DNA from: a virus
Length of the DNA stretch: 30,727 nucleotides
IMG/VR virus record: IMGVR_UViG_3300032323_002682
Span: 1-30,727 of that record
Reading direction: 5' to 3' (one strand)
The position numbers were made by a program, and so were the translations under genes. The notes under the pieces are model-generated. The model saw only the letters and a list, made by a program, of their open reading frames with translations, was not told the origin of the DNA and made no database searches. How positions within the stretch are numbered: position 1 is the first letter of the stretch; each line of letters begins with the position of its first letter. Shown piece after piece: positions 5,765 through 30,727 of this stretch.

Positions 5765-5770
5765 TATTTA
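5765..5770 (-). promoter_or_regulatory. T4-late-like promoter box TAAATA for the portal gene
   Basis: The minus strand reads GATAAATAATAGACATG, with exactly 6 nt between TAAATA and the ATG at 5758. This predicts a transcript starting at or one base from the start codon. No Shine-Dalgarno sequence is present. Confidence 0.55.
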
Positions 5771-6596: not shown

Positions 6597-7271
6597 TTAT
6601 TCTAATGAAATTGATGGACTTCCGTTGTCTGGATTATCATAAGGACCTTCATAAGCAAGTGAATCTATATTTGTGCCCGTATTTATAGAAGTTAATCTTT
6701 CATTTTCAAAAGGATTTAGTAGCTTATAAGGACGGTATTTAGAGATTACTGTCTTAGGAGGTGGTGGAATAATAGGTCTTGCATCCCAATTAACTAATGC
6801 AGGTATTGTTTGATCTTTATTAATACTTTCAAACATATATAAAATATCATTATTTGGACCAAACATTCTTGTTCCCATTAAATGCATTTCTTGGAAGAAA
6901 CCTGATAGAACACCAGATTCTGTTTGATCGAATATATTAGTCTCCATCTCAGGAGCTAATAAATTTAAATCAATATTAAATTTCTGAGGTTCACTAGATC
7001 CCATTGTATATACATTAACAACAATGTTTATTTTTTTGAAAATAGTATCTGTTAAATAGTAGGTGTGGATTTGTGGTATATAAAGAGGATCTCCACCTTC
7101 ATCAATTGTTAATCTTTGATTTATTGTGGTTTCCTCATCTAATATATATTCTATGTTATAAACTTTATTAGAAACTGACACAGAAGAAGGAATTATGGAT
7201 AAAGTAAAAGGAGCAAAGCCAGATAAGGTTTGGTTTGCTGAATCCAGAAAAACTATTTGATTATAATTCAT
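6597..7271 (-). CDS. Virion-region protein of unknown function, 224 aa
   Basis: Not recognised. The first 110 residues look like beta-sandwich strands; the C-terminal third contains NWDARPIIPPPPK, a proline run followed by SKYRPYKLLNPFENERL, which looks like an extended arm. No membrane or catalytic motif. ATG at 7271 follows a TAAATA box by 6 nt, and the next gene starts 2 nt after this stop, so the two form a late bicistronic unit. A structural or connector role is inferred from position. Confidence 0.8.
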   Translation of the reverse strand: MNYNQIVFLDSANQTLSGFAPFTLSIIPSSVSVSNKVYNIEYILDEETTINQRLTIDEGGDPLYIPQIHTYYLTDTIFKKINIVVNVYTMGSSEPQKFNIDLNLLAPEMETNIFDQTESGVLSGFFQEMHLMGTRMFGPNNDILYMFESINKDQTIPALVNWDARPIIPPPPKTVISKYRPYKLLNPFENERLTSINTGTNIDSLAYEGPYDNPDNGSPSISLE

Positions 7272-7277
7272 TAATAA

Positions 7278-7283
7278 TATTTA
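7278..7283 (-). promoter_or_regulatory. T4-late-like promoter box TAAATA for the 224/268-aa gene pair
   Basis: The minus strand reads ATTAAATATTATTAATG; 6 nt separate TAAATA from ATG 7271. The spacing is the same as at the portal gene and the 1888-aa gene. Confidence 0.55.
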
Positions 7284-9988: not shown

Positions 9989-10056
9989 ATTATTCTCAAG
10001 TCTCCAATATTTGGGAACCGTTTATTACTAAAGGTCACTAATCTTGAATATATTAA

Positions 10057-10064
10057 TATTTATA
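10057..10064 (-). promoter_or_regulatory. Full T4-late consensus TATAAATA upstream of the 892-aa fibre
   Basis: The minus strand carries a perfect TATAAATA overlapping the stop codon of the 1888-aa gene. It is 68 nt from the ATG at 9988, so the predicted leader is about 60 nt. Within that leader GGAGA lies 12 nt and GAG 5 nt before the ATG, the nearest thing to a Shine-Dalgarno sequence in the late half. Confidence 0.5.
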
Positions 10065-15732: not shown

Positions 15733-15738
15733 TATTTA
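15733..15738 (-). promoter_or_regulatory. T4-late-like promoter box TAAATA for the 1888-aa gene
   Basis: The minus strand reads CTAAATATTACAAATG with 6 nt between the box and ATG 15726. No ribosome binding site is visible between them. Confidence 0.55.
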
Positions 15739-20607: not shown

Positions 20608-20618
20608 TGTATTATTAA

Positions 20619-20624
20619 TATTTA
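20619..20624 (-). promoter_or_regulatory. Possible late box TAAATA for the vWA gene
   Basis: The minus strand reads ATTAAATATTAATAATACAATG; the box is 11 nt from ATG 20607, the longest spacing among the close late boxes, giving a predicted leader of only a few nt. It favours ATG 20607 over the longer open frame, which starts upstream of the box. Confidence 0.45.
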
Positions 20625-20648
20625 ATCTAAAAATGCAGCTTTCTAACT

Positions 20649-21365
20649 TTAAATAGGATAAACACAACTTCCATCATTTATATATGCATTTGGATTATAA
20701 TTTAATGCGTTTGGATCCATACACCCATAAACGTTTTGACTACATAATAAAGGAACTTCAAAAGTGTTTGTAGCTGGACATGCATTATATACTAATCTAC
20801 CAATTCCATCTTCTATATAAACCCAAGGAACATTGTTGTGACATTCACCAAACCCCCAATATTGTGTTCTAACATTTGGTGGAATAGCACATATGAGTTG
20901 TAAAGTCATAGATTCACTGCTATTACTAAGATTTAATCTAGGATATACATCAGAAGTTATTAAAAGTGTAGTGCTTCTATCTCCTCCATCACTCTGATTA
21001 TTTAAATCAATAAGTCCTATGTTAATGTTATTAACAAGAAGATAAAATATAGCAGCATTACAACGATGTCTTTGAGGACAAGGACCTAATGTATTGCTAA
21101 ATTTTACCGATATTTGCATTCCTACTATAAAACAATCAAAATATTCACACGAACCATCATCTATGTTTGCTTTTGGATCAAAATTCGTTGCTTTAGGATC
21201 CATACATCCATATATTATTTTTTCTTCGATTAATTCATATTTTCTCTTTTCTTCTTTAACACTAACATTACATTTAATCGGAGATTCGGTTGAAATTAAA
21301 AAATCTCCAGTAATCAAAGATTCTCCGCTTTGATAACTTGTTATATTTTCAATATTATTTGACAT
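20649..21365 (-). CDS. Virion-region protein with two GCMDP-type repeats, 238 aa
   Basis: Two copies of a 24-26-residue motif are present: YGCMDPKATNFDPKANIDDG plus SC at residues 52-75, and YGCMDPNALNYNPNAYINDG plus SC at 213-238, the second ending the protein. This GCxDPxAxNYxPxAxxDDGSC pattern recurs in secreted bacterial proteins and in marine phage virion proteins; it is rich in Asp and paired Cys, suggesting a small Ca-binding or disulphide-bonded knot. The middle (76-212) is a Cys-containing beta domain with GPCPQRHRC, QYWGFGECHNNVPWVYIED and NACPATN. ATG 21365 follows a TAAATA box by 8 nt. Likely an exposed virion component; function inferred. Confidence 0.8.
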   Translation of the reverse strand: MSNNIENITSYQSGESLITGDFLISTESPIKCNVSVKEEKRKYELIEEKIIYGCMDPKATNFDPKANIDDGSCEYFDCFIVGMQISVKFSNTLGPCPQRHRCNAAIFYLLVNNINIGLIDLNNQSDGGDRSTTLLITSDVYPRLNLSNSSESMTLQLICAIPPNVRTQYWGFGECHNNVPWVYIEDGIGRLVYNACPATNTFEVPLLCSQNVYGCMDPNALNYNPNAYINDGSCVYPI

Positions 21366-21373
21366 TCTTAATA

Positions 21374-21379
21374 TATTTA
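21374..21379 (-). promoter_or_regulatory. T4-late-like promoter box TAAATA for the GCMDP-repeat gene
   Basis: The minus strand reads CCTAAATATATTAAGAATG; 8 nt separate the box from ATG 21365. Confidence 0.5.
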
Positions 21380-21387
21380 GGTTTAAA

Positions 21388-21870
21388 TTACCACTTACCT
21401 ATAGGACACACAGAAGTATCTAATCTGAGCTTTGCTTGGGTTGAACAACCACATTTTTCACACTTTCCTGTATTAGCAAACGCAGAAGAATCCCAAAACT
21501 CACAAGACTCACATATTTTTAATCTCTCATTAAACATTTTTCTAGTAGCCACAGGCATACCTTCAAGTCCCCATTCTACAAGACTTTCAGTAAAACTTTT
21601 TGCTTTTTGTAACAAAGAAGGAGGTTTTGGTTCTTTTTCTATTTTAGGAGGATTCTCCAAAGATGAATTGACATATTTTAACCAAATGTCACACACAAAA
21701 GATTTGATTTCTTCGTCAGTTTTAATTTTATTACTCCAATATTTTAATAGATTATCGGGAGTTATCTTCTTGAATCCCTTGTCTATCCACCTCTGACGGT
21801 TTTTAGGTCTTAACTGTAATGTAACAAAATACATTATAATTCTTAATTGTTTGTCTGTTATATCACACAT
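21388..21870 (-). CDS. Phage protein with C-terminal zinc ribbon, 160 aa
   Basis: The N-terminal half is helical (KNRQRWIDKGFKKITPDNLL, then LLKYWSNKIKTDEEI). A Pro/Lys linker near residues 72-85 leads to a C-terminal zinc-ribbon region: ICESCEFW, then GKCEKCGCS, then TSVCPIGKW. The Cys spacing and the closing CPxGKW are familiar from small zinc-binding proteins beside structural genes in T4-like phages. The substrate is unknown. This is the first gene of the minus-strand half; a TAAATA box lies 9 nt before ATG 21870. Confidence 0.8.
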   Translation of the reverse strand: MCDITDKQLRIIMYFVTLQLRPKNRQRWIDKGFKKITPDNLLKYWSNKIKTDEEIKSFVCDIWLKYVNSSLENPPKIEKEPKPPSLLQKAKSFTESLVEWGLEGMPVATRKMFNERLKICESCEFWDSSAFANTGKCEKCGCSTQAKLRLDTSVCPIGKW

Positions 21871-21879
21871 ATCTTTATC

Positions 21880-21885
21880 TATTTA
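21880..21885 (-). promoter_or_regulatory. T4-late-like promoter box TAAATA for the zinc-ribbon gene
   Basis: The minus strand reads ATTAAATAGATAAAGATATG; the box ends 9 nt before ATG 21870. It lies in the 60-bp divergent region shared with the first plus-strand gene. Confidence 0.45.
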
Positions 21886-21895
21886 ATAATATTAC

Positions 21896-21924
21896 TAGAC
21901 AATCAATACTTTATGTTATAAATA
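21896..21924 (+). promoter_or_regulatory. Divergent-region promoter, TAGACA plus TATAAATA
   Basis: TAGACA at 21896-21901 is 15 nt from TATAAATA at 21917-21924, and 6 nt (ataaac) then lead to ATG 21931. The site can be read as a sigma70-like promoter or as a perfect T4-late box. Either way the transcript would start at or close to the ATG. The bases around the -35 box (tactagaca) recur at the 23648 promoter. Confidence 0.5.
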
Positions 21925-21930
21925 ATAAAC

Positions 21931-22128
21931 ATGGATACATTTTCTTCAGACTCTATAAGAAACCAAACAGGCATGGTTGCTAGTAATGCACGAACCTTTT
22001 CAAGAAACATAGAGATTCCTATAAAGATTGTAAACAAGAAAAAGATCGGTTCAAAACAAAAAAAACAAATAAAAGAAATATCCAATCTTATCCTTAAACT
22101 AGCAGAGACTTTGAATAAAGTAGCTTGA
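21931..22128 (+). CDS. Small basic protein of unknown function, 65 aa
   Basis: The product starts MDTFSSDSIRNQTGMVASNA and carries a basic stretch (IKIVNKKKIGSKQKKQIKE) followed by a short amphipathic helix, NLILKLAETLNKVA. No family is recognised; the Lys-rich centre would suit nucleic-acid binding, but that is a guess. First gene of the plus-strand half. Its stop TGA (22126-22128) is nested inside the TTGACA of the next promoter. A 78-aa open frame on the opposite strand overlaps it fully and is rejected because this frame has the promoter. Confidence 0.65.
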   Translation: MDTFSSDSIRNQTGMVASNARTFSRNIEIPIKIVNKKKIGSKQKKQIKEISNLILKLAETLNKVA

Positions 22129-22152
22129 CATAAAACCAAATAGCAGTATCAT
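22125..22152 (+). promoter_or_regulatory. Sigma70-like promoter TTGACA-N16-TATCAT
   Basis: TTGACA 22125-22130, 16-nt spacer, TATCAT 22147-22152, then 6 nt (gggtct) to ATG 22159. The A of the ATG would be the +1 base, so the mRNA should be leaderless. The -35 box contains the stop codon of the preceding gene. Confidence 0.65.
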
Positions 22153-22158
22153 GGGTCT

Positions 22159-22917
22159 ATGAAAATACAATTCATAGCAACCTCCAGAGAACTTCTTGAT
22201 ATACTGGACAGTAAACCTCATCCAGCAAATAGGATACTACCTGAATGGGTTGCTAAAATGCCTTCGTATGCAGGAGGTAAACAAGGAGTAGATGACAATG
22301 CAGATCCTAACAGCACCATTAAAAAATGTATGCCTGTAATTGATTCTATGACTGCTGGATATTATATGCCATTGTTCTGTGATCTTTGGATTGAAAGAAA
22401 GGATCATATATCTTTTAAGTGGTCAATGGATACACTTCCATTGATAACTGCACAAAATCCAGATCGATATACCGAATATCCTATTCCAGAGGGATATCAC
22501 CAAATGGCTTTTAAGTTCAATAATCCTTGGATTATTAAAACACCACCCGGTTGGTCGTGTTTATTTACTCATCCTCTTAATTATGATGATCTTCCTTTTA
22601 GATGTATTCCTGCAATTGTTAGTACAGATAAGTTTCCTGCGCCTGTTCATTTCCCATTCTTTTTAAAGGAAGGATTTCAGGGATTGATTGAAAAGGGAAC
22701 TCCTTTGGTTCAGGTTATTCCTTTCAAAAGAGAAACATTCAAATCTGAATTTTCTTATGATAAAGGAGAAAAGCTTTCCAAAATTTGGAAGAGAGCAGAA
22801 AGTGTCTTCTTCGGAAGATATGTTAAATTCTTTAGGGAAACATCGAAATATACAGAGGGTTCACTGAAAACAGAATCTAAATGCCCCTTTGCAAATATGT
22901 TCGGAGGGAGTAAATAA
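22159..22917 (+). CDS. Phage protein of unknown function, 252 aa
   Basis: Soluble Trp/Pro-rich protein. Distinctive stretches are PHPANRILPEWVAKMPSYAG near residues 20-40, the segment IKKCMPVIDSMTAGYYMPLF, NPWIIKTPPGWSCLFTHPLN and FPAPVHFPFFLKEG. The overall pattern recalls an uncharacterised protein family seen in T4-like and marine phages (I think the DUF6065 type, but I cannot verify this). No catalytic or metal motif is obvious. Head of an early operon with the two short genes that follow at 6-nt gaps; predicted leaderless from the TTGACA promoter upstream. Confidence 0.8.
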   Translation: MKIQFIATSRELLDILDSKPHPANRILPEWVAKMPSYAGGKQGVDDNADPNSTIKKCMPVIDSMTAGYYMPLFCDLWIERKDHISFKWSMDTLPLITAQNPDRYTEYPIPEGYHQMAFKFNNPWIIKTPPGWSCLFTHPLNYDDLPFRCIPAIVSTDKFPAPVHFPFFLKEGFQGLIEKGTPLVQVIPFKRETFKSEFSYDKGEKLSKIWKRAESVFFGRYVKFFRETSKYTEGSLKTESKCPFANMFGGSK

Positions 22918-22922
22918 AACAT

Positions 22923-23117
22923 ATGCAACAAACATTAACAATGATTCACGAAACCAAGTATCCGTCCGGTACTTCTTATGCAAAGAGAGAAGCTGCTATA
23001 AATAATGATCTCATTTCAATTCAAAATACATTGAGAACTCGTGGCTTTTATATGCTTGGGCACGATGTCACATCAAAAACCGATACAAAGGCAGTTATCA
23101 AAGTACTTTACAGATAA
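22923..23117 (+). CDS. Small protein of unknown function, 64 aa
   Basis: ATG 22923 lies 5 nt after the upstream stop. The product starts MQQTLTMIHETKYPSGTSYA and includes AKREAAINNDLISIQNTLR, a helix typical of small phage regulatory or accessory proteins. It ends TDTKAVIKVLYR. No motif is recognised. No promoter of its own; it belongs to the operon begun at 22159. A GGAGGG in the end of the previous gene is 15 or more nt away, too far for a normal ribosome binding site. Confidence 0.7.
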   Translation: MQQTLTMIHETKYPSGTSYAKREAAINNDLISIQNTLRTRGFYMLGHDVTSKTDTKAVIKVLYR

Positions 23118-23123
23118 AAACCT

Positions 23124-23261
23124 ATGGCTGGCAAAGGAGATCGACCAAGAATTGGAGATAGAAAAGCATTCAATCAGAATCATGATGCTATTAAATTTCC
23201 AAATAAAAAAAACTCCGATGGTTTTGTAAAACTCAAAGGAAAAATTACTAAAAAGTATTAA
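23124..23261 (+). CDS. Small MAGKGDRPR-type phage protein, 45 aa
   Basis: The product begins MAGKGDRPRIGDRKAFNQNH and ends GKITKKY. A start of the type M-x-GKGD-(K/R)-x-R followed by a short basic body is a recurrent small phage and prophage protein of unknown role, which supports it as real despite its length. It follows the 64-aa gene by 6 nt and ends the operon; a four-hairpin region lies immediately after. No ribosome binding site is visible. Confidence 0.7.
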   Translation: MAGKGDRPRIGDRKAFNQNHDAIKFPNKKNSDGFVKLKGKITKKY

Positions 23262-23308
23262 TCGTGAGTGGTAAAAAACCAATTATATATTATTTTTGGC
23301 TTACTTAT

Positions 23309-23326
23309 TATGTTTTAAGAAACATA
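23309..23326. repeat. Inverted repeat 1 of the hairpin region
   Basis: TATGTTT and AAACATA flank the 4-nt loop TAAG: a perfect 7-bp stem. First of four in 155 bp. Confidence 0.75.
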
Positions 23327-23343
23327 CACCATATAATATATCT

Positions 23344-23363
23344 ATATCTCTATAGAGAGATAT
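23344..23363. repeat. Inverted repeat 2 of the hairpin region
   Basis: ATATCTCT and AGAGATAT flank the loop ATAG: a perfect 8-bp stem. AATATA upstream and TATATT downstream could extend it across a 3-nt bulge. Confidence 0.8.
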
Positions 23364-23403
23364 TATATTTACGTTTAATTATATTCCATATTTTCGGATT
23401 ATA

Positions 23404-23421
23404 ATATCTTATATAAGATAT
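23404..23421. repeat. Perfect 18-bp palindrome, hairpin region
   Basis: ATATCTTAT is followed directly by its reverse complement ATAAGATAT, with no loop. It fits a dimeric protein operator at least as well as an RNA hairpin. Confidence 0.8.
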
Positions 23422-23442
23422 AAGATTAATATTAAAAAGATA

Positions 23443-23462
23443 ATCAGTATTTAATTACTGAT
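23443..23462. repeat. Inverted repeat 4 of the hairpin region
   Basis: ATCAGTA and TACTGAT flank the loop TTTAAT: a perfect 7-bp stem, ending 17 bp before ATG 23480. It occupies the place where other genes here have their -35 box. Confidence 0.75.
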
Positions 23463-23479
23463 AAGTATTAATAGGTTCG

Positions 23480-23644
23480 ATGAGTGCCTATTTTCCAATT
23501 AAAATCAGAGGGAAAGATTACATTGTAATCCAGAAAGGCAACCTCATCGAATTAGAATATAAAGAAGATAGTGATAAGGATGTTCCTGAAAGAGAATCCG
23601 AGATTATCATCATGTATTTGATGGATGAAGGTTTCATCAAATAA
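23480..23644 (+). CDS. Small acidic protein of unknown function, 54 aa
   Basis: The product starts MSAYFPIKIRGKDYIVIQKG and continues as beta strands then a charged segment (EYKEDSDKDVPERESE) and a hydrophobic helix (IIIMYLMDEGFIK). It resembles a small single-domain beta-barrel followed by a helix, but no family is recognised. It has no TTGACA-like box; instead it sits just after four inverted repeats, so it may be controlled differently from the other early genes. A weak AGG lies 4 nt before the ATG. Confidence 0.65.
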   Translation: MSAYFPIKIRGKDYIVIQKGNLIELEYKEDSDKDVPERESEIIIMYLMDEGFIK

Positions 23645-23647
23645 TAC

Positions 23648-23675
23648 TAGACATATCATTATTTTGAAATATACT
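23648..23675 (+). promoter_or_regulatory. Sigma70-like promoter TAGACA-N16-TATACT
   Basis: TAGACA 23648-23653, 16-nt spacer, TATACT 23670-23675, then 8 nt to ATG 23684. An overlapping TACTAT at 23672-23677 would leave exactly 6 nt. Both predict a leaderless or nearly leaderless transcript. Confidence 0.6.
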
Positions 23676-23683
23676 ATACTCCT

Positions 23684-23851
23684 ATGTACAAAGTAAAATA
23701 CATCCTTGCAACTTTATTGGTAAAATTTAATTTATTGTTTACTAAGAAGAATTCTAACAGATATTACAGATACACATTCCTCTTAGAGGATATTCAAGAC
23801 GAAAAAAACCACGAAACCATATGCAAACAAATGAAGAAAAATTGGATTTAG
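23684..23851 (+). CDS. Small protein of unknown function, 55 aa
   Basis: The product starts MYKVKYILATLLVKFNLLF, a hydrophobic stretch with two Lys that could be a signal anchor or amphipathic helix, then a basic segment (KKNSNRYYRY) and an acidic-to-basic tail. It ends at TAG 23849-23851. The start is supported by the promoter 8 nt upstream. The next gene begins inside it at 23821 in another frame. No family is recognised. Confidence 0.6.
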   Translation: MYKVKYILATLLVKFNLLFTKKNSNRYYRYTFLLEDIQDEKNHETICKQMKKNWI

Positions 23852-23964
23852 AATGGTATAGGAAATACAGGGCAGAATTCCTAAAACTTCAGCCCGTGAA
23901 CACTTTTAATGAAAAGAAACATAAAAAATCTAGAAGAGCAAATCAAAAGTCATATAACAAATGA
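23821..23964 (+). CDS. Small basic protein of unknown function, 47 aa
   Basis: The product starts MQTNEEKLDLEWYRKYRAEF and ends in a Lys/Arg/Asn-rich tail (KKHKKSRRANQKSYNK). It overlaps the previous gene by 31 bp and the next by 56 bp, in different frames. The WYRKYRAEF stretch and the basic tail look like a real short phage protein, but the heavy overlap on both sides lowers confidence. No ribosome binding site is visible. Confidence 0.45.
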   Translation: MQTNEEKLDLEWYRKYRAEFLKLQPVNTFNEKKHKKSRRANQKSYNK

Positions 23965-24274
23965 AGAGCTTAAAGAGAAGTTAAAAAAACTTAAATTAAA
24001 AATAAAAAAGAAAGATAGTGTTAAAAACTATGTTCTTGAGCCTTTTTATAATTCTTTTGTTCCTTTTATTATAGATCAATACAAAAGATATAGCGATCAA
24101 CCCAGAAAGGAAAGATATATAACAGACAATAAAGCAGAGTTTATGAAAAAATATATTAATATTATTTCAAATAATATCATGGACGATTATAATGATAAGA
24201 AAATAGATAAACAATCCTTCATAACGGCTATGAAAACTATGCTGGATATTAAAAAGGACTTTTGGGTTTTATAA
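23909..24274 (+). CDS. Helical protein of unknown function, 121 aa
   Basis: The first 40 residues are a strongly charged coiled-coil candidate (LEEQIKSHITNEELKEKLKK, then LKLKIKKKDS). The rest is helical with many Tyr, Lys and Asn (VLEPFYNSFVPFIIDQYKRY, then EFMKKYINIISNNIMDDYND). No catalytic motif or family is recognised. No in-frame ATG closer to the end of the previous gene keeps the N-terminal helix, so ATG 23909 is kept despite the 56-bp overlap. It ends one base before the next TTGACA promoter. Confidence 0.7.
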   Translation: MKRNIKNLEEQIKSHITNEELKEKLKKLKLKIKKKDSVKNYVLEPFYNSFVPFIIDQYKRYSDQPRKERYITDNKAEFMKKYINIISNNIMDDYNDKKIDKQSFITAMKTMLDIKKDFWVL

Positions 24275-24275
24275 C

Positions 24276-24303
24276 TTGACAACAAGGTTTGTCGTTCTAT
24301 AAT
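24276..24303 (+). promoter_or_regulatory. Consensus sigma70 promoter TTGACA-N16-TATAAT
   Basis: TTGACA 24276-24281 and TATAAT 24298-24303 both match the consensus perfectly, with a 16-nt spacer. Only attatt separates the -10 box from ATG 24310, so +1 should be the A of the ATG. It is the strongest-looking promoter in the window and drives the longest run of overlapping small genes. Confidence 0.8.
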
Positions 24304-24309
24304 ATTATT

Positions 24310-24522
24310 ATGAATGGTTTTAGTAAAAACACAATGGCTGAAATCATAGAAGGCTATGGTGAGATCAAACCAACCGATATGTCCGAATATCTAGAGCAAT
24401 TAGATCATATCGAAGAGATTGTCCCAGACACCTTTCAGCCTGTACAACAGAAAATTGTTGTGCAAAAAGAAGAAGACAATCCATTCACCAACACTATAAA
24501 AAATAAATTAGGAATTAAATGA
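24310..24522 (+). CDS. Small acidic protein of unknown function, 70 aa
   Basis: A TTG seven codons upstream is in frame but lies inside the promoter, so ATG 24310 is chosen. The product (MNGFSKNTMAEIIEGYGEIK, then MSEYLEQLDHIEEIVPDTFQ) is acidic and ends in a basic peptide, TIKNKLGIK. Possible short helices; no family recognised. First cistron of an operon of four overlapping small genes. Its TGA overlaps the next ATG as ATGA. Confidence 0.7.
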   Translation: MNGFSKNTMAEIIEGYGEIKPTDMSEYLEQLDHIEEIVPDTFQPVQQKIVVQKEEDNPFTNTIKNKLGIK

Positions 24523-24725
24523 TTATGATAAAAGACATATTATTAGTATTAACATCAAACATAACATCAATATCTTGTTCTGTGGGAGCTTCTTTTCTTG
24601 CATATAACCATATATCCGGATGGGGTTGGTTTTTATTTGTAGCTTGTATAACCGTAGTAACCCCAAGAATAACAGCAGAGGTTAAAAATAAAAAAGAAGA
24701 CAAAGTAGAATTACTAGTAGAATGA
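24519..24725 (+). CDS. Small membrane protein, 68 aa
   Basis: Two hydrophobic segments are visible, at about residues 5-30 (ILLVLTSNITSISCSVGASF) and 33-48 (GWGWFLFVACITVVTP), followed by a charged C-terminal tail (EVKNKKEDKVELLVE) probably in the cytoplasm. It could be an inner-membrane protein acting in host takeover, superinfection control or lysis, but no holin family is recognised and no endolysin gene is in the window. Start and stop both use 4-bp ATGA overlaps with the neighbours. A weak AGGA lies upstream of the ATG. Confidence 0.7.
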   Translation: MIMIKDILLVLTSNITSISCSVGASFLAYNHISGWGWFLFVACITVVTPRITAEVKNKKEDKVELLVE

Positions 24726-24892
24726 TAGGATTAGACGAAGAAACTTTAAAACGAATAGAAGAAGATCTTGAAAGAGATTTTGCACCTGTTCGTGAACGGA
24801 TACAAAAGGCTTTGAACAAGGTTCCAAAACTTATAACATTCAAAGAAGCACAAGAGCAGATAAATAAATTTAAATATGAACACAAACATTAA
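24722..24892 (+). CDS. Small helical protein of unknown function, 56 aa
   Basis: The product starts MIGLDEETLKRIEEDLERDF and continues APVRERIQKALNK, then ITFKEAQEQINKFKYEHKH: highly charged and almost wholly helical. No family is recognised. It starts in an ATGA overlap with the membrane-protein gene and its end overlaps the next gene by 17 bp. Confidence 0.65.
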   Translation: MIGLDEETLKRIEEDLERDFAPVRERIQKALNKVPKLITFKEAQEQINKFKYEHKH

Positions 24893-25109
24893 CCCTTCTG
24901 TATTGGGAGAAATTATAGGAAATTGTCCAAAAATAAACGAAAAAGTATCTTACCTCGAAAGCGATAGTGTAAAGGCAATAGAGGAAGTCATGAACAATAA
25001 TGAGTTGACCGAAGAACAAAAATCAACGATCATTTCATATATAAAAACTTCCAAAAAAGATAACTTTATAAAACCTACCATTAATATTTTAAACGAAAAT
25101 TTGGTTTAA
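24876..25109 (+). CDS. Small helical protein of unknown function, 77 aa
   Basis: The product starts MNTNINPSVLGEIIGNCPKI, then SYLESDSVKAIEEVMNNNEL and TEEQKSTIISYIKTSKKDNF: a compact helical domain with one Cys. No known motif. Last cistron of the operon that starts at 24310; the next promoter begins 9 bp after its stop. Confidence 0.65.
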   Translation: MNTNINPSVLGEIIGNCPKINEKVSYLESDSVKAIEEVMNNNELTEEQKSTIISYIKTSKKDNFIKPTINILNENLV

Positions 25110-25117
25110 AAATAATA

Positions 25118-25146
25118 TTGACATTATCAATTATATAATCTATTAT
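25118..25146 (+). promoter_or_regulatory. Sigma70-like promoter TTGACA-N17-TATTAT
   Basis: TTGACA 25118-25123, 17-nt spacer, TATTAT 25141-25146, then 6 nt (tgaata) to ATG 25153. Predicted +1 is the A of the ATG. Confidence 0.7.
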
Positions 25147-25152
25147 TGAATA

Positions 25153-25314
25153 ATGAAATCCTACCAACGAAAAACTTTTATTATTGTGAATGGTGAACAG
25201 ATAGATACGACAAAAGTTGAGTTTCTTAATATAGAAGAAGATATTTCAGGTAGGGATTTGATGACTTTTGTTTATGAGGGTAAAACCTATCAAAGTTTTG
25301 TTTTAATTAAATGA
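25153..25314 (+). CDS. Small protein of unknown function, 53 aa
   Basis: The product starts MKSYQRKTFIIVNGEQIDTT and ends YEGKTYQSFVLIK. Strand-rich pattern with a central acidic loop (LNIEEDISGRD). The general shape (strand-turn-strand, then an EGKTY hairpin) resembles that of the 54-aa product at 23480, without clear identity. The promoter 6 nt upstream decides the start; the stop overlaps the next ATG as ATGA. Confidence 0.65.
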   Translation: MKSYQRKTFIIVNGEQIDTTKVEFLNIEEDISGRDLMTFVYEGKTYQSFVLIK

Positions 25315-25532
25315 AATATCATATAGATACAGAAACAGCAGACAATATCTGTAAGGATGTATTAAGGAATACCATTAAACAATTAAAACAAAATATACAA
25401 AAAAATAAAAAACAAATCAAAGCAAAAGGTTCAACCGAACATCTTGCTTGGCTTGAAGACATTGCATGGGATGAAAAATATCTCGAAGCAGCAAAAGTAT
25501 TATACCAATATTTTGAATGTAAAATAAAATGA
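25311..25532 (+). CDS. Small helical protein of unknown function, 73 aa
   Basis: The product starts MKYHIDTETADNICKDVLRN, then a Lys/Gln-rich helix (IKQLKQNIQKNKKQIKAKGS), then HLAWLEDIAWDEKYLEAAKV and YQYFECKIK. Two helices joined by a short turn, possibly an antiparallel coiled coil. No family recognised. ATGA overlaps at both ends tie it to the genes on either side. Confidence 0.7.
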   Translation: MKYHIDTETADNICKDVLRNTIKQLKQNIQKNKKQIKAKGSTEHLAWLEDIAWDEKYLEAAKVLYQYFECKIK

Positions 25533-25816
25533 ATGAACAAGAAAACTTTGAAATCGTTCCCATTATAGAGATAGGAACCGCATATGATTCTGAAGGAGAA
25601 AAACAGGACATTATAACTTGTAAATTTCTTGACGGAGAGCTTACAGCACCGATGGTTGTGGCTATATGTTTGGGAGTCATAGATACCTTTGTAAAAAAGG
25701 TAGATGAAAATTATCAAATAGAAATAGAAGATGCCATCTTCTCCACCCTCAATGAAGAGAGGGACAGAAGACATGACTATATTGATGGTATTGATTATGG
25801 AGACGATGAAGAATAA
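25529..25816 (+). CDS. Acidic protein of unknown function, 95 aa
   Basis: The product starts MNEQENFEIVPIIEIGTAYD, has a central hydrophobic helix (APMVVAICLGVIDTFVKKVD) and a very acidic end (RRHDYIDGIDYGDDEE). The hydrophobic stretch is short and probably packs inside a domain rather than crossing a membrane. No known motif. Third cistron of the operon begun at 25153. Confidence 0.7.
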   Translation: MNEQENFEIVPIIEIGTAYDSEGEKQDIITCKFLDGELTAPMVVAICLGVIDTFVKKVDENYQIEIEDAIFSTLNEERDRRHDYIDGIDYGDDEE

Positions 25817-25919
25817 AATTATTCGTCATTTGCTTATTAACTTGCAAGAGTATTTGTATACTACAATATCTCTAACTGTTATCATATATACTATATTAGA
25901 ACTTAAAAAATATATATGA
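25806..25919 (+). CDS. Tiny membrane protein candidate, 37 aa
   Basis: The product starts MKNKIIRHLLINLQEYLY and continues as a hydrophobic helix, TTISLTVIIYTILEL, ending KKYI. Basic ends around one membrane segment. It overlaps the previous gene by 11 bp, and its TGA overlaps the ATG of the phosphatase gene as ATGA, the same junction used elsewhere in these operons; that is the main support. A longer in-frame start at 25731 lies deep inside the previous gene and is unlikely. Confidence 0.5.
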   Translation: MKNKIIRHLLINLQEYLYTTISLTVIIYTILELKKYI

Positions 25920-26341
25920 TAGAAGTCAAAAAGGTAATCACTGTAGATTGGGATGATACTCTTTTTGAAGATCCAGCATACATGTCATATGGACTTTGGA
26001 TTCCAGCAGCAACCGGAGCACAACCAATAGAACGTATTCATGATTATATAAAAAAGAAATCGGATGAAGGGTTTGAAATTCATGTGGTTTCATTCAGGGA
26101 AGAAAAAGATAAACAGGAAATGATTGATTTGGCAGGTCTGTACAATCTTCCTATAAAAACTTTTATATGCACTTCTGGAAAATCAAAAACATCCTTTCTT
26201 AAAAAACTAGGAAGTCAACTTCACATCGATGATAACGTAGAAGTTTTGGTTTTAGCCAAACAAGCGGATATTGATGGTTTACTGGTCGATCACAACCAAC
26301 AAGACATAAACTGTACGGCAACTCTTTTTGATAAAATTTAA
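25916..26341 (+). CDS. HAD-superfamily phosphatase-like protein, 141 aa
   Basis: HAD motif I is clear: ITVDWDDTLFE, with nucleophile Asp11 and acid/base Asp13. VVSFREE fits motif II (Ser), the Lys in SGKSKTSFLKKLG fits motif III, and HIDDNVEVL near residues 103-111 fits motif IV. A complete but minimal HAD core without a large cap, which suits large substrates such as nucleic-acid ends or proteins as well as nucleotides. It ends with a region (DHNQQDINCTATLFDKI) of unknown role. An RNA ligase gene lies 660 bp downstream, so RNA 3'-phosphate removal is possible, but there is no kinase domain and the link is only by proximity. Starts in an ATGA overlap. Confidence 0.8.
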   Translation: MIEVKKVITVDWDDTLFEDPAYMSYGLWIPAATGAQPIERIHDYIKKKSDEGFEIHVVSFREEKDKQEMIDLAGLYNLPIKTFICTSGKSKTSFLKKLGSQLHIDDNVEVLVLAKQADIDGLLVDHNQQDINCTATLFDKI

Positions 26342-26344
26342 TTG

Positions 26345-26372
26345 TTGACTTTATGTTAAAATGTTTTATCCT
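26345..26372 (+). promoter_or_regulatory. Weaker sigma70-like promoter TTGACT-N16-TATCCT
   Basis: TTGACT 26345-26350, 16-nt spacer, TATCCT 26367-26372, then 11 nt to ATG 26384. The least perfect of the nine early promoters; predicted leader is about 5 nt. Confidence 0.4.
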
Positions 26373-26383
26373 TGGTAAAACAT

Positions 26384-26578
26384 ATGACAAAAAAATCATT
26401 TACAAAGATTATCCTAAACCTTCAACTTGCTCGTAAGAGGTCTCGTGATCTTTATAAACTTGGAATTGATCTCATGCAATATGATGAGAGCTATGAACAT
26501 GTTATTGATGAACTCTTCAGAGCAGCTTTTATAATAAAACTCAAGCATGAAAACATTAATTTCCATACAATTCAATGA
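26384..26578 (+). CDS. Small helical protein of unknown function, 64 aa
   Basis: A TTG four codons upstream is in frame, but ATG 26384 is more likely. The product (MTKKSFTKIILNLQLARKRS, then RDLYKLGIDLMQYDESYEHV, then IDELFRAAFIIKLKHENINF) is helical with a basic N-terminal half, like small DNA- or RNA-polymerase-binding phage proteins, without a recognisable helix-turn-helix. The next gene starts 32 bp before its stop. Confidence 0.65.
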   Translation: MTKKSFTKIILNLQLARKRSRDLYKLGIDLMQYDESYEHVIDELFRAAFIIKLKHENINFHTIQ

Positions 26579-26933
26579 CAACAAATATTTCATTAGTTTG
26601 AAAAAAGCTACTTCTGCTTGGGATTTGGATTACTATAATTGCAAAGCAGGGGGTTTCAAAATAGAATATAAACTTCCAAAATGGAAAACTTTAGGTCCAG
26701 AATATAAAGATTTTGCCGATCTTTATTTCCGAAAAGTATTTAAGAAAAGAAAGAAATACAATATTCCTCCGGTCGCACTTGAAGTTCCGTCTATGTATAG
26801 AAGAGAGGATATCTGTGAGGAAGCAACCGAAAACATGGAAAAGATTCACAAAATGAATCAAGAGGTATATTCTAGAATACGGGAAATTGCGAAAAACATA
26901 CCCGAAACCGAATTCAGAAAATTAGGATCATGA
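26547..26933 (+). CDS. Basic protein of unknown function, 128 aa
   Basis: The product starts MKTLISIQFNDNKYFISLKK, then WDLDYYNCKAGGFKIEYKLP and FRKVFKKRKKYNIPPVALEV, then a helical C-terminal third (ICEEATENMEKIHKMNQEVY). The single Cys and aromatic-rich strands suggest a small mixed domain. No family is recognised. No later in-frame ATG preserves the N-terminal strands, so the 32-bp overlap is accepted. Stop overlaps a 16-codon frame as ATGA. Confidence 0.7.
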   Translation: MKTLISIQFNDNKYFISLKKATSAWDLDYYNCKAGGFKIEYKLPKWKTLGPEYKDFADLYFRKVFKKRKKYNIPPVALEVPSMYRREDICEEATENMEKIHKMNQEVYSRIREIAKNIPETEFRKLGS

Positions 26934-26980
26934 AACACGTAGAACCAGAGCTATATAAACCTCTTGACACCTCCTCCTAA
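26930..26980 (+). CDS. Possible 16-residue micro-ORF
   Basis: ATG 26930 overlaps the previous stop as ATGA and the frame encodes MKHVEPELYKPLDTSS before TAA. It spans the -35 box of the RNA ligase promoter. The coupled start is in keeping with the rest of the operon, but at this length the frame may be chance. Confidence 0.2.
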   Translation: MKHVEPELYKPLDTSS

Positions 26981-26992
26981 AGCATATAGAAT
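26964..26992 (+). promoter_or_regulatory. Sigma70-like promoter TTGACA-N17-TAGAAT
   Basis: TTGACA 26964-26969, 17-nt spacer, TAGAAT 26987-26992, then 9 nt (acaacaatt) to ATG 27002 of the RNA ligase. Predicted leader is 0-3 nt. A CCTCCTCC run lies in the spacer, not in the transcript. Confidence 0.7.
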
Positions 26993-27001
26993 ACAACAAT
27001 T

Positions 27002-27991
27002 ATGAAACTCGCATCTCTTGAAGTAATCAAGTCTATTAAGGAACACCCGAATGCTGATTCGTTAGAAATCGCTCAGGTTTTAGGTTGGCAGACTATTGTA
27101 AAGAAGGGAGAGTTCAAGGAAGGGGATAAGATTATCTTCATTGTGATTGATACCATTCTTCCCAAGGCTCCTTGGTCTGATTTTCTTGCTGATAAAAAAG
27201 ATCCTGAGAAGCCTATTAGACTCAGAACAATTAAATTGAGAGGGCAGCATTCTCAGGGACTTGTCCTTCCATTATCTGTTCTCTATGGTAATACCTTTGC
27301 TGCCTCTACTTGGCAGATTGGTGCTGATGTGGGTGCAGAGCTTGGTGTTAAGCGATATGCTAAGGAGCTACCAGCTTCATTATCAGGCGAAATTGTAGGT
27401 ACATTTCCTACCTACATGGTGTCTAAAACTGATGAAGACAATGGTCTTTCTAACCCTGAGCTTGTAGCTGAAGTTCTAAAATATCCTATTACCATAACAG
27501 GTAAAATGGATGGTTCGAGTTGCACAATTATTATCAAAGATGGTAAGATTGATCAGGTGTGTTCTCGAAATCTTTCTCTCAAGGAATCCGACACCAATGC
27601 ATTTTGGAAGGCAGCAAAAAAACTGAACATCCCCGAAGGCTTCAATGGTATCATACAAGGTGAAGTCTGTGGTGTAGGGATTAATGGAAATGTTCATAAT
27701 ATTCCAGAACCAACACTGTTTGTGTTTCAGATTCGCACTCAAGATATATATATGACATATCATAATATGGAGCAGTTTTGTCAGCAGAATCTAAACTGCA
27801 ATGTTGTTCCTCTTATTGTCCATTCTGTTAGTGGAGAAGATCTTGATAGTCTTATCGAACTTGCTGATGAGCAAAGGACTAGCGAGGGACTTCCAGCAGA
27901 AGGTATTGTGATTCGACCATCGGATTATAGAGCTTCGGGTATAGGTAGACCTTTAGGGTTTAAGATTATCAATAGAAATTACAGAGATTGA
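27002..27991 (+). CDS. ATP-dependent RNA ligase, Rnl5-like, 329 aa
   Basis: Seals RNA ends through a covalent enzyme-AMP intermediate. The nucleotidyltransferase core is visible: motif I GKMDGSS with adenylated Lys168, motif III-like TLFVFQI, motif IV EGIVIRP and motif V GFKIINRNY close to the end. The first 100 residues (SIKEHPNADSLEIAQVLGWQ, then KGEFKEGDKIIFIVIDTILP) form an OB-fold-like N-terminal domain, the arrangement known from Deinococcus-type (Rnl5) ligases. The protein ends soon after motif V, as in that family. Predicted role: repair of tRNA or other RNA broken by host defence nucleases. A homing endonuclease gene follows 14 nt after the stop. Codon choice looks slightly richer in G/C-ending codons than in the preceding small genes. 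Confidence 0.88.
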   Translation: MKLASLEVIKSIKEHPNADSLEIAQVLGWQTIVKKGEFKEGDKIIFIVIDTILPKAPWSDFLADKKDPEKPIRLRTIKLRGQHSQGLVLPLSVLYGNTFAASTWQIGADVGAELGVKRYAKELPASLSGEIVGTFPTYMVSKTDEDNGLSNPELVAEVLKYPITITGKMDGSSCTIIIKDGKIDQVCSRNLSLKESDTNAFWKAAKKLNIPEGFNGIIQGEVCGVGINGNVHNIPEPTLFVFQIRTQDIYMTYHNMEQFCQQNLNCNVVPLIVHSVSGEDLDSLIELADEQRTSEGLPAEGIVIRPSDYRASGIGRPLGFKIINRNYRD

Positions 27992-28005
27992 ATGTAAATA
28001 TTAGT

Positions 28006-28863
28006 ATGAATAATACTACTAATAATCTTCCTACATTTATTAAGAATAGAAAATATACACTCAACGTAAATTACTTTTCAGCCATAGATTCTGCCGAAAA
28101 AGCATACTGGTTGGGCTTCTTGTATGCAGATGGATGTGTACATAAAAATAATCTTATTATAGGATTACAGAAAAATGATAAAGATCATTTGTTAAAATTT
28201 GCAAAAGAAATAGAAAGAAATACTGATAAACTATACTATAATAGTAAAACAAAAAGCTATACCTTAACAGTATGTAGTTGTGAATTGGTAAATCGATTAA
28301 TTGAATTGGGTTGTGTTCCTAAGAAATCTTTAATTTTAAAATATCCATCAGAGCAACAGCTACCAAAGGAATATAATTCACACTTTATAAGAGGTTATTT
28401 TGATGGAGATGGATCTATTACACATATGAATGGTGGCAGTAATGCTGAAATATGTATAGTAGGAACACTCGAATTCTTAACCAGTATTTCTAAATTCTTA
28501 GAAAAAGAAGGTGTATTATTCAATATTTATAAACATAAAAACGCAAAATCATATTACATAAGTTTTGCATCCAGAAATAGTGTCGATGCCTTTTTTAATT
28601 TTATATATAATAATAGTAACATTAGACTTGAACGAAAATATAACAAATTTAAAAGTTTTTTTGAAATATCTGAAAATCTAAAAAACAAAAGATGGCTGAA
28701 TTCTAAAAAACGATATTTTGACAAGAGAAGAAATTCGTGGATAGTTTGTTTTAATCATAATAAAAAAAGAATTAGAACAATGGGTTCATATAAAACTGAA
28801 AAAGAAGCAATTGATAAAATCAATGAATATGCTCTTGCTAATGGATTGCCTTTTATCACTTGA
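28006..28863 (+). CDS. Free-standing LAGLIDADG homing endonuclease with AP2 domain, 285 aa
   Basis: Two LAGLIDADG motifs are clear: AYWLGFLYADGCV with catalytic Asp42 and HFIRGYFDGDGSI with Asp135, so one chain forms the pseudo-dimeric nuclease. The C-terminal 45 residues (KRYFDKRRNSWIVCFNHNKK, then MGSYKTEKEAIDKINEYA) look like an AP2/integrase-type DNA-binding domain, common on homing endonucleases. A TTG six codons upstream is in frame; ATG 28006 is chosen. No promoter of its own, so it is read from the RNA ligase promoter. It lies between the ligase stop and the next gene's promoter, and its TGA stop forms part of that promoter's TTGACA. Known role of the family: cleaving unoccupied cognate alleles and spreading by recombination; the target here is probably in or beside the RNA ligase gene (inference). 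Confidence 0.88.
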   Translation: MNNTTNNLPTFIKNRKYTLNVNYFSAIDSAEKAYWLGFLYADGCVHKNNLIIGLQKNDKDHLLKFAKEIERNTDKLYYNSKTKSYTLTVCSCELVNRLIELGCVPKKSLILKYPSEQQLPKEYNSHFIRGYFDGDGSITHMNGGSNAEICIVGTLEFLTSISKFLEKEGVLFNIYKHKNAKSYYISFASRNSVDAFFNFIYNNSNIRLERKYNKFKSFFEISENLKNKRWLNSKKRYFDKRRNSWIVCFNHNKKRIRTMGSYKTEKEAIDKINEYALANGLPFIT

Positions 28864-28888
28864 CAATTTTTTAAAAATACAATACAAT
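28860..28888 (+). promoter_or_regulatory. Sigma70-like promoter TTGACA-N17-TACAAT
   Basis: TTGACA 28860-28865, 17-nt spacer, TACAAT 28883-28888, then 6 nt (aaaaac) to ATG 28895. Predicted leaderless. The -35 box contains the stop codon of the homing endonuclease. Confidence 0.72.
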
Positions 28889-28894
28889 AAAAAC

Positions 28895-29449
28895 ATGAGT
28901 CCAGATTTAGAAAAACAACTTGTAGAAAAATATCCAAACATTTTCACGGATTACAAAGGTGATCCGATTGAAACTTGTATGGCATGGGGTTGTGAACACG
29001 ATGATGGCTGGTTTAATCTTCTCGACAATCTTTGTGCATACATAGAAGAATGTGTTCGTTATCGATCCAAATACAAAGCCAATGATCAATATGTTCCCAA
29101 AGAAGGAGAACTAGATAAATGGGGATATCTGGATATCCCTTATCCTAAAGTTATTTTCACACAAGTAAAAGAAAAATTTGCAGGACTGCGTATTTATTTT
29201 CATCTGGTTGATGTTGCCACTGAGGAGCAATTAGCCAAGATTGATTTTGATTCCTATCAAAAGGCTCGTGAATTTATCTGGCAATCCGTAAGCGGTGCTA
29301 TTGAATTTACAGAATTTCTATCACACAAAACCTGTGAATTCTGTGGTAACAAAGGTCGTGTTTACCGTGATGGTTGGTTTAAAACACTTTGTCCCGAATG
29401 TGCAAAGAAACAAAATCGAGACGATTCTCACATAACCGAATTGCCATGA
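28895..29449 (+). CDS. Phage protein with C-terminal zinc ribbon, 184 aa
   Basis: An in-frame ATG at 28811 lies inside the homing endonuclease and upstream of the promoter, so ATG 28895 (MSPDLEKQLVEKYPNIFTDY) is used. Typical stretches are MAWGCEHDDGWFNLLDNLC, FTQVKEKFAGLRIYFHLVD and the zinc-ribbon KTCEFCGNKGRVY plus TLCPECAKK. This composition (GDGW/LL, QVKEKFGxLRxY, CExCG...CxxC) is a widespread uncharacterised family in phages and prophages. Its role is unknown; the zinc ribbon suggests nucleic-acid or protein binding. First cistron of a two-gene unit. Confidence 0.8.
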   Translation: MSPDLEKQLVEKYPNIFTDYKGDPIETCMAWGCEHDDGWFNLLDNLCAYIEECVRYRSKYKANDQYVPKEGELDKWGYLDIPYPKVIFTQVKEKFAGLRIYFHLVDVATEEQLAKIDFDSYQKAREFIWQSVSGAIEFTEFLSHKTCEFCGNKGRVYRDGWFKTLCPECAKKQNRDDSHITELP

Positions 29450-29679
29450 AACATCCCGCCGAACTATCATTTGAAGAATCTTGTAAACTGGAATTAAAAC
29501 TAGTTGAACAGGAAGCAATTATAAAAGCCCTGAGAGAGCAGGTTCTTTATTGGAGAAATCTCATGAAGGAGTTCTGTGATAACATGGATGATGCTCTTAT
29601 CGAAGAACATAAAGGAATTCCTTTTAGTGCCTTGGATAAGGACGGAAAATTTAAAAATATAAATTGCAATAAGCAATAA
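29446..29679 (+). CDS. Small coiled-coil-like protein, 77 aa
   Basis: An in-frame ATG lies upstream inside the previous gene, but ATG 29446 overlaps its stop as ATGA and is preferred. The product starts MKHPAELSFEESCKLELKLV, continues as one long helix (EQEAIIKALREQVLYWRNLM, then KEFCDNMDDALIEEHKGIPF) and ends basic. A short parallel coiled coil is likely. No family recognised. Confidence 0.7.
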   Translation: MKHPAELSFEESCKLELKLVEQEAIIKALREQVLYWRNLMKEFCDNMDDALIEEHKGIPFSALDKDGKFKNINCNKQ

Positions 29680-29695
29680 TCCCCATAAAAAAATA

Positions 29696-29723
29696 TTGAC
29701 ACTGATCAAAAAACATATAGACT
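29696..29723 (+). promoter_or_regulatory. Sigma70-like promoter TTGACA-N16-TAGACT
   Basis: TTGACA 29696-29701, 16-nt spacer, TAGACT 29718-29723, then 8 nt (ataaaaat) to ATG 29732. Predicted leader is 0-2 nt. Confidence 0.65.
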
Positions 29724-29731
29724 ATAAAAAT

Positions 29732-30088
29732 ATGAAGTACCAAATCCGAAAAGTAGAAGAAATCACTATTTGGCAAGCAACCGAAGTTGCAGAACTTGAT
29801 CCAGAGTGGTTTAAAACCCTTGAAGCAAACCCCTACACTGGTGATAGTGAGGAGGATTTCCTAAAGTATATTCAAGAGTTTATTAATACTTGCCGTTGGG
29901 ATGGATTCCCCGATGACCTTGATGGTGAGGCAGCAGACGAACTCGACAAGATGATTGAGAACGTCAAATGGACAGAGTATGCCAATTCCTGCGAGAAGGG
30001 CGAGTCTTCTTGGTATCAGAGTGGCGAGAAGAACGAGGAGTATCGCAAAACTGGTGGGTTCAAAGTTAATTTTGATGTTGAAAACTAA
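29732..30088 (+). CDS. Acidic protein of unknown function, 118 aa
   Basis: An in-frame start 12 codons upstream overlaps the promoter, so ATG 29732 (MKYQIRKVEEITIWQATEVA) is used. The protein is acidic and Trp-rich: ELDPEWFKTLEANPYTGDSE, then RWDGFPDDLDGEAADELDKM, then GESSWYQSGEKNEEYRKTGG. No catalytic motif is recognised. From about 29900 its codons use many G/C-ending forms (GAG, AAG, GAC, TAC), unlike the AAA/GAA-heavy small genes at 24-26 kb, hinting at a different origin. It is followed directly by the next ATG without a gap. Confidence 0.75.
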   Translation: MKYQIRKVEEITIWQATEVAELDPEWFKTLEANPYTGDSEEDFLKYIQEFINTCRWDGFPDDLDGEAADELDKMIENVKWTEYANSCEKGESSWYQSGEKNEEYRKTGGFKVNFDVEN

Positions 30089-30559
30089 ATGAAAAAAATA
30101 GTAATCAATAAATGTCATGGAGGCTTTGGTCTTTCCCCAAAGGGATTGAAGCGTTGGGCAGAACTTAATGGACAGGAATGTTATTTCTTTAAAAACTCAT
30201 TTTCTTCTGAGAAGAATACTCCTCTTAGTCTTGAAGAGGCTACAAAGGAAAGAGTCTTCTGGACTGCTTTCAATATTCCTAATCCAGAGGAGCTTATTCC
30301 CGATCAAAGCAACTGGCACGAGTTGACTGATGAGGAGAAGACGAAATCCAATGAAGAGTATAACAAGTATTCTCTTTGTGCCAGAAGTATTAAGAGAGAT
30401 GATCCTAATCTGATTAAGGTTATCAAGGAACTCAAGAAGGAAGCCAACGGATTTGCCGCTGATTTAAAAGTAGTATCTATTCCGGATGATGTTGATTGGG
30501 AAATAGAGGAATATGATGGTTTGGAGTGGGTACAACGTAAAACTGAAAAGTGGTATTAA
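30089..30559 (+). CDS. Phage protein of the INKCHGGFGLS type, 156 aa
   Basis: The product starts MKKIVINKCHGGFGLSPKGL. A start with a beta strand, Cys and GGFGLS is shared by an uncharacterised family found in many phages and some bacteria. The rest is helical and charged (LSLEEATKERVFWTAFNIPN, then IKVIKELKKEANGFAADLKV) and the end is beta-like with Trp (DDVDWEIEEYDGLEWVQR). Function unknown. The ATG is immediately after the previous stop, so coupled translation is likely. Like its neighbour it uses more G/C-ending codons than most of the plus-strand half. Confidence 0.78.
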   Translation: MKKIVINKCHGGFGLSPKGLKRWAELNGQECYFFKNSFSSEKNTPLSLEEATKERVFWTAFNIPNPEELIPDQSNWHELTDEEKTKSNEEYNKYSLCARSIKRDDPNLIKVIKELKKEANGFAADLKVVSIPDDVDWEIEEYDGLEWVQRKTEKWY

Positions 30560-30567
30560 TCTTCAAT

Positions 30568-30727
30568 ATGACCAACAGACCAAATTTAACAGAAGAAGAG
30601 AAAGAGCATTACAATAAGGTTGCTATGGATATGATTCATAACAAAACTCCTAGAACAGATAAAGCTGAACCACAAATTCGATTTATTAAAAGTGGTTGGG
30701 TTAGATCAGATTTTGCAAGAGAACTGG
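30568..30727 (+). CDS. Partial gene of unknown function, N-terminal 53 residues
   Basis: ATG 30568 begins MTNRPNLTEEEKEHYNKVAM and the frame stays open to the window edge (SGWVRSDFARELQ-like end, incomplete). It follows the previous stop by 8 nt with no promoter of its own. Too short to classify; the visible part looks helical and charged. Confidence 0.6.
   Translation, partial: MTNRPNLTEEEKEHYNKVAMDMIHNKTPRTDKAEPQIRFIKSGWVRSDFAREL

Follow-up and report, generated by a model that had tools for sequence, protein, structure and literature searches.

Promoters set at the start codon suggest largely leaderless early and late genes in an uncultured clade of T4-superfamily phages

Genes and early promoters of the window

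The stretch of DNA analysed here, referred to as the window, covers positions 1 to 30,727 of IMG/VR virus record IMGVR_UViG_3300032323_002682 (30.7 kb, G000). It represents part of the genome of a T4-superfamily phage in which promoters of early and late type stand so close to start codons that transcription would begin at or near the ATG. The portal encoded on its - strand is a T4-type gp20 (Pfam PF07230, E 3e-96). Structural genes occupy the - strand, and the + strand encodes an RNA ligase and a LAGLIDADG endonuclease besides small genes. In the first-pass annotation, pairs of -35-like and -10-like boxes before nine + strand ATGs were described as a leaderless early programme. Every one of these boxes was located where it had been placed; the spacers, given there as 15-17 nucleotides (nt), are mostly 16-17 nt. 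The nine units are as follows.

21896..21931, + strand: TAGACA and TATAAATA (21917-21924, an exact T4 late box), ATG 21931; early or late class ambiguous
22125..22161, + strand: TTGACA-16-TATCAT, 6 nt to ATG 22159 (phrog_7084 protein); boxes and orthologues
23648..23686, + strand: TAGACA-16-TATACT, 8 nt to ATG 23684; boxes and consensus scan
24276..24312, + strand: TTGACA-16-TATAAT (12/12 matches), 6 nt to ATG 24310; boxes and consensus scan
25118..25155, + strand: TTGACA-17-TATTAT, 6 nt to ATG 25153; boxes and consensus scan
26345..26386, + strand: TTGACT-16-TATCCT, 11 nt to ATG 26384, the weakest unit; boxes and consensus scan
26964..27004, + strand: conserved early cassette TTGACACCTCCTCCTAAAGCATATAGAATA, ATG 27002 (RNA ligase); cassette scan and orthologue
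28860..28897, + strand: TTGACA-17-TACAAT, 6 nt to ATG 28895; boxes, consensus scan and orthologue
29696..29734, + strand: TTGACA-16-TAGACT, 8 nt to ATG 29732; boxes, consensus scan and four orthologues

Between the end of the -10 box and the ATG there are 6 nt in five units, 8-9 nt in three and 11 nt in one (26384). The unit at 21931 may be late or dual, because it contains the exact T4 late consensus. When positions 21300-30727 (9.4 kb) were scanned for the promoter consensus, 11-12 of 12 matches were reached at five sites only, all adjacent to an ATG; these are TTGACA-16/17-TATAAT-like, and a distance of 6-9 nt separates their ends from the ATGs at 22159, 24310, 25153, 27002, and 28895. In the same scan, 9-10 matches were scored for the units at 23684, 26384, and 29732. 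The start at 22159 is backed by a PHROG alignment beginning at residue 2, and that at 27002 by a Pfam OB-fold domain beginning at residue 3.

With up to one mismatch allowed in a -35 box starting at -39 to -33, and up to two in the -10 box, nine of the 24 + strand gene starts qualify for both boxes in the claimed register. If all starts are shifted jointly, a mean of 0.49 genes qualifies; nine is reached at one of 8855 offsets, adjoining the zero shift, and only offsets of 3 nt or less approach this number. These thresholds were chosen after the pattern had been seen, therefore the relatives of the window provide the real test.

Relatives of the window

No close relatives of the window were found in INPHARED by megablast. 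Searches with the RNA ligase and the phrog_7084 protein yielded 0 loci and 1 locus, respectively, and the portal was therefore used as the route to relatives. At least 588 portal relatives are present in IMG/VR, and those fetched at 70-80 % portal identity include contigs of 74.8, 202.9, and 111.6 kb. The near clade comprises close portal relatives and the far clade 79 further loci, mostly more distant; the GC content of the clade phages is 31-36 %. Portal identity to T4, RM378, and cyanophage is approximately 22-26 % (approximately 23-26 % to T4 and cyanophage). The T4-type major capsid protein gp23, encoded outside the window, was found in relatives G001, G003, G004, G011, G013, and G014 (E down to ~1e-66), and is closest to those of phage HTVC008M and cyanophage (30-34 % identity). 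A gp55-type late sigma factor is present in relatives G003/G008 (E 4e-27), with a tblastn match in G014; none was found in the window fragment. The Far-T4 phages of Roux (2015) are reportedly a gp23 clade uniting Lake Pavin contigs and RM378. Among the reference phages compared in gp20 and gp23, RM378 is no nearer to the present clade than cyanophage or HTVC008M.

Early-promoter register across relatives

First genes were defined as those with an upstream gap of at least 25 nt and operon-internal genes as those with a gap of less than 10 nt. In 287 first genes of the near clade, TTGACA peaks at -35 of the ATG (18 against 2.1 per position) and TATAAT at -12 (47, with an average of 10.2 per position). 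In a textbook sigma70 promoter the two hexamers begin at -35 and -12, therefore these peaks put +1 at the A of the ATG. The TATAAT peak at -12 persists in first genes without a recognised promoter pair, and the distance from the -10 end to the next open reading frame (ORF) ATG peaks at 6 nt, with 37 sites against approximately 3 per position. Without gene calling, CTTGAC and TTGACA rank first and second among 4096 hexamers for an ATG 34-40 nt downstream. A pyrimidine occupies base -1 in 71 % of first genes versus 60 % of internal genes, which fits the initiator expectation. Both the early and the late promoter peaks are absent from operon-internal genes.

Leaderless-positioned promoters precede 112 of 344 first genes (33 %) in the near clade, 61 of them early (control 5.2) and 58 late (control 5.7), and 188 of 398 (47 %) in the far clade.

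Orthologues of individual window genes give the same picture. In the RNA ligase orthologue of G003 (55 % identity), TTGACA is at -35 and the spacer is unrelated; the orthologue of the 28895 gene in the same relative (31 % identity) has TTGACT at -35. Four orthologues of the 29732 gene have TTGACA at -35 to -41, and those of the 22159 gene have TTGACA at -34 (L042) and TAGACA at -37 (L133). Because the register is kept although the spacer sequence differs, the orthologues were counted in favour of leaderless genes. The first-pass annotation had proposed that gene starts be checked for a TTGACA peak at -35, and had named failure of related phages to keep the boxes at this distance as grounds against its claim. 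The peak is there and the distance is conserved. Statistics, orthologues and related contigs, of which there are dozens, support a placement of the promoters that puts +1 at the ATG.

Late promoters in the same register

Boxes of T4 late type are found before the following - strand genes of the window.

5765..5770, - strand: portal gene (ATG 5758), TAAATA late box at -12
7278..7283, - strand: gene starting at 7271, TAAATA late box at -12; box kept in three orthologues
15733..15738, - strand: gene for 1888 amino acids starting at 15726, TAAATA late box at -12; box kept close before the ATG in four orthologues
21374..21379, - strand: gene starting at 21365, TAAATA late box at -14
21880..21885, - strand: gene starting at 21870, TAAATA late box at -15

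In every orthologue found of the 15726 and 7271 genes, TAAATA stays close upstream of the ATG. Among the first genes of the near clade, TAAATA peaks at -12 (22 against 2.0) and TATAAATA at -14 (17 against 2.7); in the far clade the peaks are at -11 (76 against 3.9) and -13 (58 against 4.2), respectively. As the first T of the T4 late box is at -13 (PMC2988020), TATAAATA at -13 again puts +1 at the A of the ATG. An ATG lies 4-8 nt downstream of 202 of 810 late boxes in the far clade, versus 1 of 92 in T4, 0 of 36 in cyanophage and 2 of 65 in RM378. The proposal of a leaderless early programme therefore stands as to the register of the early promoters, but not as to its restriction to them, since structural-gene promoters of T4 late type share this register.

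The early cassette as a recombination joint

The cassette TTGACACCTCCTCCTAAAGCATATAGAATA recurs before the RNA ligase gene of the window (26964) and in G001, G004, and G011. A scan of IMG/VR with its -35 to -10 part only, and thus blind to the ATG, yielded 67 distinct sites. The first ORF ATG is at exactly +35 in 45 of these and between +29 and +47 in 66. In 64 sites (loci L171-L206) the cassette precedes 51 unrelated ORF families. Where two cassettes have homologous upstream flanks, the downstream ORFs are unrelated in 16 of 17 pairs, and where the ORFs are homologous, the flanks are unrelated in 13 of 14. With this number of families, and with flanks and ORFs decoupled, the cassette behaves as a gene-shuffling joint. 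Lacking a leader, it is complete in approximately 38 bp, and its advantage would lie in this completeness. The spacer of the cassette, CACCTCCT, is similar to the anti-Shine-Dalgarno end of 16S rRNA, a likeness that is probably fortuitous.

Scarcity of Shine-Dalgarno sites

Shine-Dalgarno (SD) sites are found in 2-6 % of first genes of the clade, against 29 % in T4, and SD 4-mers in 17 of 284 first genes, against 20 in the control. They are nearly absent from first and internal genes alike. Within operons there are 51 four-base stop-start overlaps (ATGA), as well as near-zero gaps.

Comparison with known systems

The clade resembles T4 in its late-box consensus TATAAATA, the gp55 homologue of a relative, and the T4-type portal and capsid. 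It differs in arrangement: with the same pipeline, T4 has SD sites at -11/-12, scattered late boxes and no leaderless-positioned promoter in 84 first genes. The T4 boxes are 20-37 nt upstream of SD-bearing ATGs, whereas those of the clade abut the ATG, with SD nearly absent. Leaderless-positioned promoters were likewise found in 0 of 70 first genes of the cyanophage control and 1 of 56 of RM378. Pelagibacter phage HTVC008M, a SAR11 isolate (L208, L210, L211), has nine in 57 first genes, and its eight late boxes exactly 5 nt before the ATG are like those of the clade. Unlike the clade, it has SD sites in 39 % of first genes and no early leaderless promoters above control, and is therefore regarded as a mixed system.

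T4-type mobile regulatory cassettes are said to have been described by Arbiol and colleagues in 2010 as short repeated early-promoter elements joining shuffled genes. Such mobile cassettes reportedly carry a stem-loop in the leader. The clade cassette is similar in being a repeated promoter element at the joints of shuffled genes, but ends in the start codon with no leader; with the ATG at +35 in most sites there is no room for a leader stem-loop. Individual leaderless messages are known from other phages, such as that of lambda cI from PRM, in which the AUG is at the 5′ end of the mRNA. Those cases are single genes, whereas here the arrangement is clade-wide. Leaderless phage messages had been regarded as rare in the first-pass annotation, which understates their frequency, as phage transcripts are 'often leaderless' according to the AR9 paper. 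Bacterial genes with a TA-like promoter signal in Deinococcus-Thermus and Actinobacteria (PMC3160421, PMC12340547) share with the clade a -10 box approximately 12 nt before the start, the lack of SD and, as the DNA of the clade suggests, a start codon at +1; those genes are cellular, whereas the clade is a virus lineage and adds -35 boxes and a phage-specific late promoter. Leaderless genes, the transcription system of T4 and mobile cassettes of T4 type are each known already, and the clade-wide combination seems unreported. No report of a T4-like clade with leaderless early and late genes was found in the literature searched, in which subscription journals and preprints were thinly covered.

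Interpretation and alternatives

It is likely, with a probability of roughly 80 %, that this is an uncultured T4-superfamily clade in which most promoter-proximal genes, early and late, are leaderless or nearly so (0-5 nt), with start-stop coupling within operons. Since the promoters are placed for +1 at the first coding letter, most primary messages should lack a leader, judging from the DNA. The sigma70-type early boxes would be read by host RNA polymerase and the T4 late boxes by RNA polymerase with gp55, in both cases with +1 at the A of the AUG or no more than a few bases away. Without a leader there can be no SD site, and the ribosome would have to take the 5′-terminal AUG of the first gene; later genes of the operon would be translated by stop-start coupling or re-initiation, through the ATGA overlaps and near-zero gaps. 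The early promoter and ATG together form a module of approximately 38 bp that has no gene-specific part, and this module recurs as a recombination joint before unrelated ORFs.

Several observations weigh against this interpretation. At the leaderless position, no promoter is recognised in between half and two thirds of first genes, gene starts were taken from a home-made caller, and the early and late classes of genes are assignments from promoter type and gene content. At 26384 the box is 11 nt from the ATG and most orthologues (44-80 % identity) have no promoter there, while one has the cassette. The portal gene of several relatives appears to have a leader of approximately 5-10 nt, its box being some 16 nt upstream, and some cassettes have the ATG at +40 to +47, which implies a short leader. 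The leaderless rule is also not total, as two late genes show. The gp23 gene retains AAGGA/AGGAG 13-18 nt before the ATG in G001, G003, G004, G011, and G013, and a structured leader precedes the 892-amino-acid gene (7310-9988).

9989..10059, - strand: leader of 71 nt before the 892-amino-acid gene, predicted to form two hairpins; an exception to the leaderless arrangement

This leader follows a TAAATATT box, and GACTTGAGAATAAT, replaced by GACTAAAAAAT in L008, stands between the hairpins and the ATG. By eye, pairing in the two consecutive hairpins is retained despite sequence changes across six sequences (window, L005, L006, L008, L010, and L027). Folded singly, the sequences score only slightly better than their shuffled versions (z -0.35 to -1.67), and the leader matches no Rfam family. 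It is a candidate structured cis-acting RNA.

The short leaders of portal genes and cassettes could indicate that transcription generally begins 5-15 nt upstream of the ATG. This is quite unlikely, as the modal distances of both promoter classes (-35/-12 and -13/-14) exactly fit +1 at the A. That promoter-like boxes occur by chance near any ATG in AT-rich DNA is hardly credible: such sites overall are barely above shuffles (55 against 44.7), but the slide test, hexamer ranking, cassette, and T4 and cyanophage controls refute it. It is also very improbable that the AT-rich box is a Kozak-like, A-rich translation-initiation signal and no promoter. A residues at -3 and -6 modulate initiation in F. 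johnsoniae, and the region here is A/T-rich, but a -35 hexamer stands in register and the late motif is the known T4 late consensus. This possibility was rejected because the -35 and late motifs are missing from internal genes, which use the same ribosomes.

A considerable possibility, somewhat short of even odds, is that the host ribosome does not use SD sites, as in Bacteroidota, and that functionless leaders were passively lost in a compact genome, without selection for initiation by 70S ribosomes. In keeping with this, SD sites are as scarce in first as in internal genes, one relative (75 % portal identity) sits in a metagenome-assembled genome (MAG) of Chitinophagaceae, and published host predictions for Far-T4-like phages favour Bacteroidota. 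However, messages with no leader or almost none make up only 3.7-5.5 % of mapped Bacteroidota transcriptomes, therefore a lack of SD is not in itself enough to remove leaders. De novo, the early boxes emerge as TTGACA/TATAAT peaks and not as the Bacteroidota TAnnTTTG -7 box; the far clade has no matching TTTG peak. A crAss-like Cellulophaga phage has no such register across 50 kb with 20 genes, and such a portal is present in only 1 of 396 Chitinophagaceae genomes. This distribution, one MAG contig against 395 other genomes of the family without such a portal, does not support Chitinophagaceae as the host. Of the two Bacteroidota comparators, RM378 and the Cellulophaga phage, neither shows the pattern.

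Alternatively, the phage may mirror a host that is itself mostly leaderless, as in Deinococcus-Thermus and Actinobacteria, where TA-like signals at approximately -12 mark leaderless genes (PMC3160421, PMC12340547). This is doubtful given the 31-36 % GC of the phages and the weak TTTGC at -8 (5 of 139 genes) in the one putative host MAG.

As to purpose, the first-pass annotation suggested that phage messages could bypass 30S recruitment by 70S initiation. This is possible, but a host that ignores SD, or the compactness of a promoter-plus-ATG module, would be simpler. A further, rather unlikely extension is that both transcription systems are set to the A of the AUG to give the phage a separate translation channel by terminal AUG, distinct from the leadered host, with the SD-bearing gp23 and the 892-amino-acid gene as regulated exceptions.

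Leaderless phage messages are usually seen as single curiosities, and a widespread aquatic T4-like clade with early and late promoters set at the start codon would offer a natural system for leaderless initiation. Rapid gene exchange would be simply explained if any ORF is expressed once it is joined to a promoter-plus-ATG module of approximately 38 bp. In practice, promoter position can correct gene starts in these phages, and a missing SD site is no ground to reject genes. HTVC008M has a cultured host, and part of the pattern is therefore testable.

Other features of the window

An Rfam scan of the window gave no relevant match. An AT-rich stretch of approximately 200 bases with ATATAT repeats is present without a called gene. 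The LAGLIDADG endonuclease is probably a homing endonuclease, directly 3′ of the RNA ligase gene, and a large protein is encoded amid the structural genes.

23262-23480, + strand: AT-rich stretch with ATATAT repeats
28006-28863, + strand: LAGLIDADG endonuclease
15958-20667, - strand: 1569-amino-acid protein with a von Willebrand A domain

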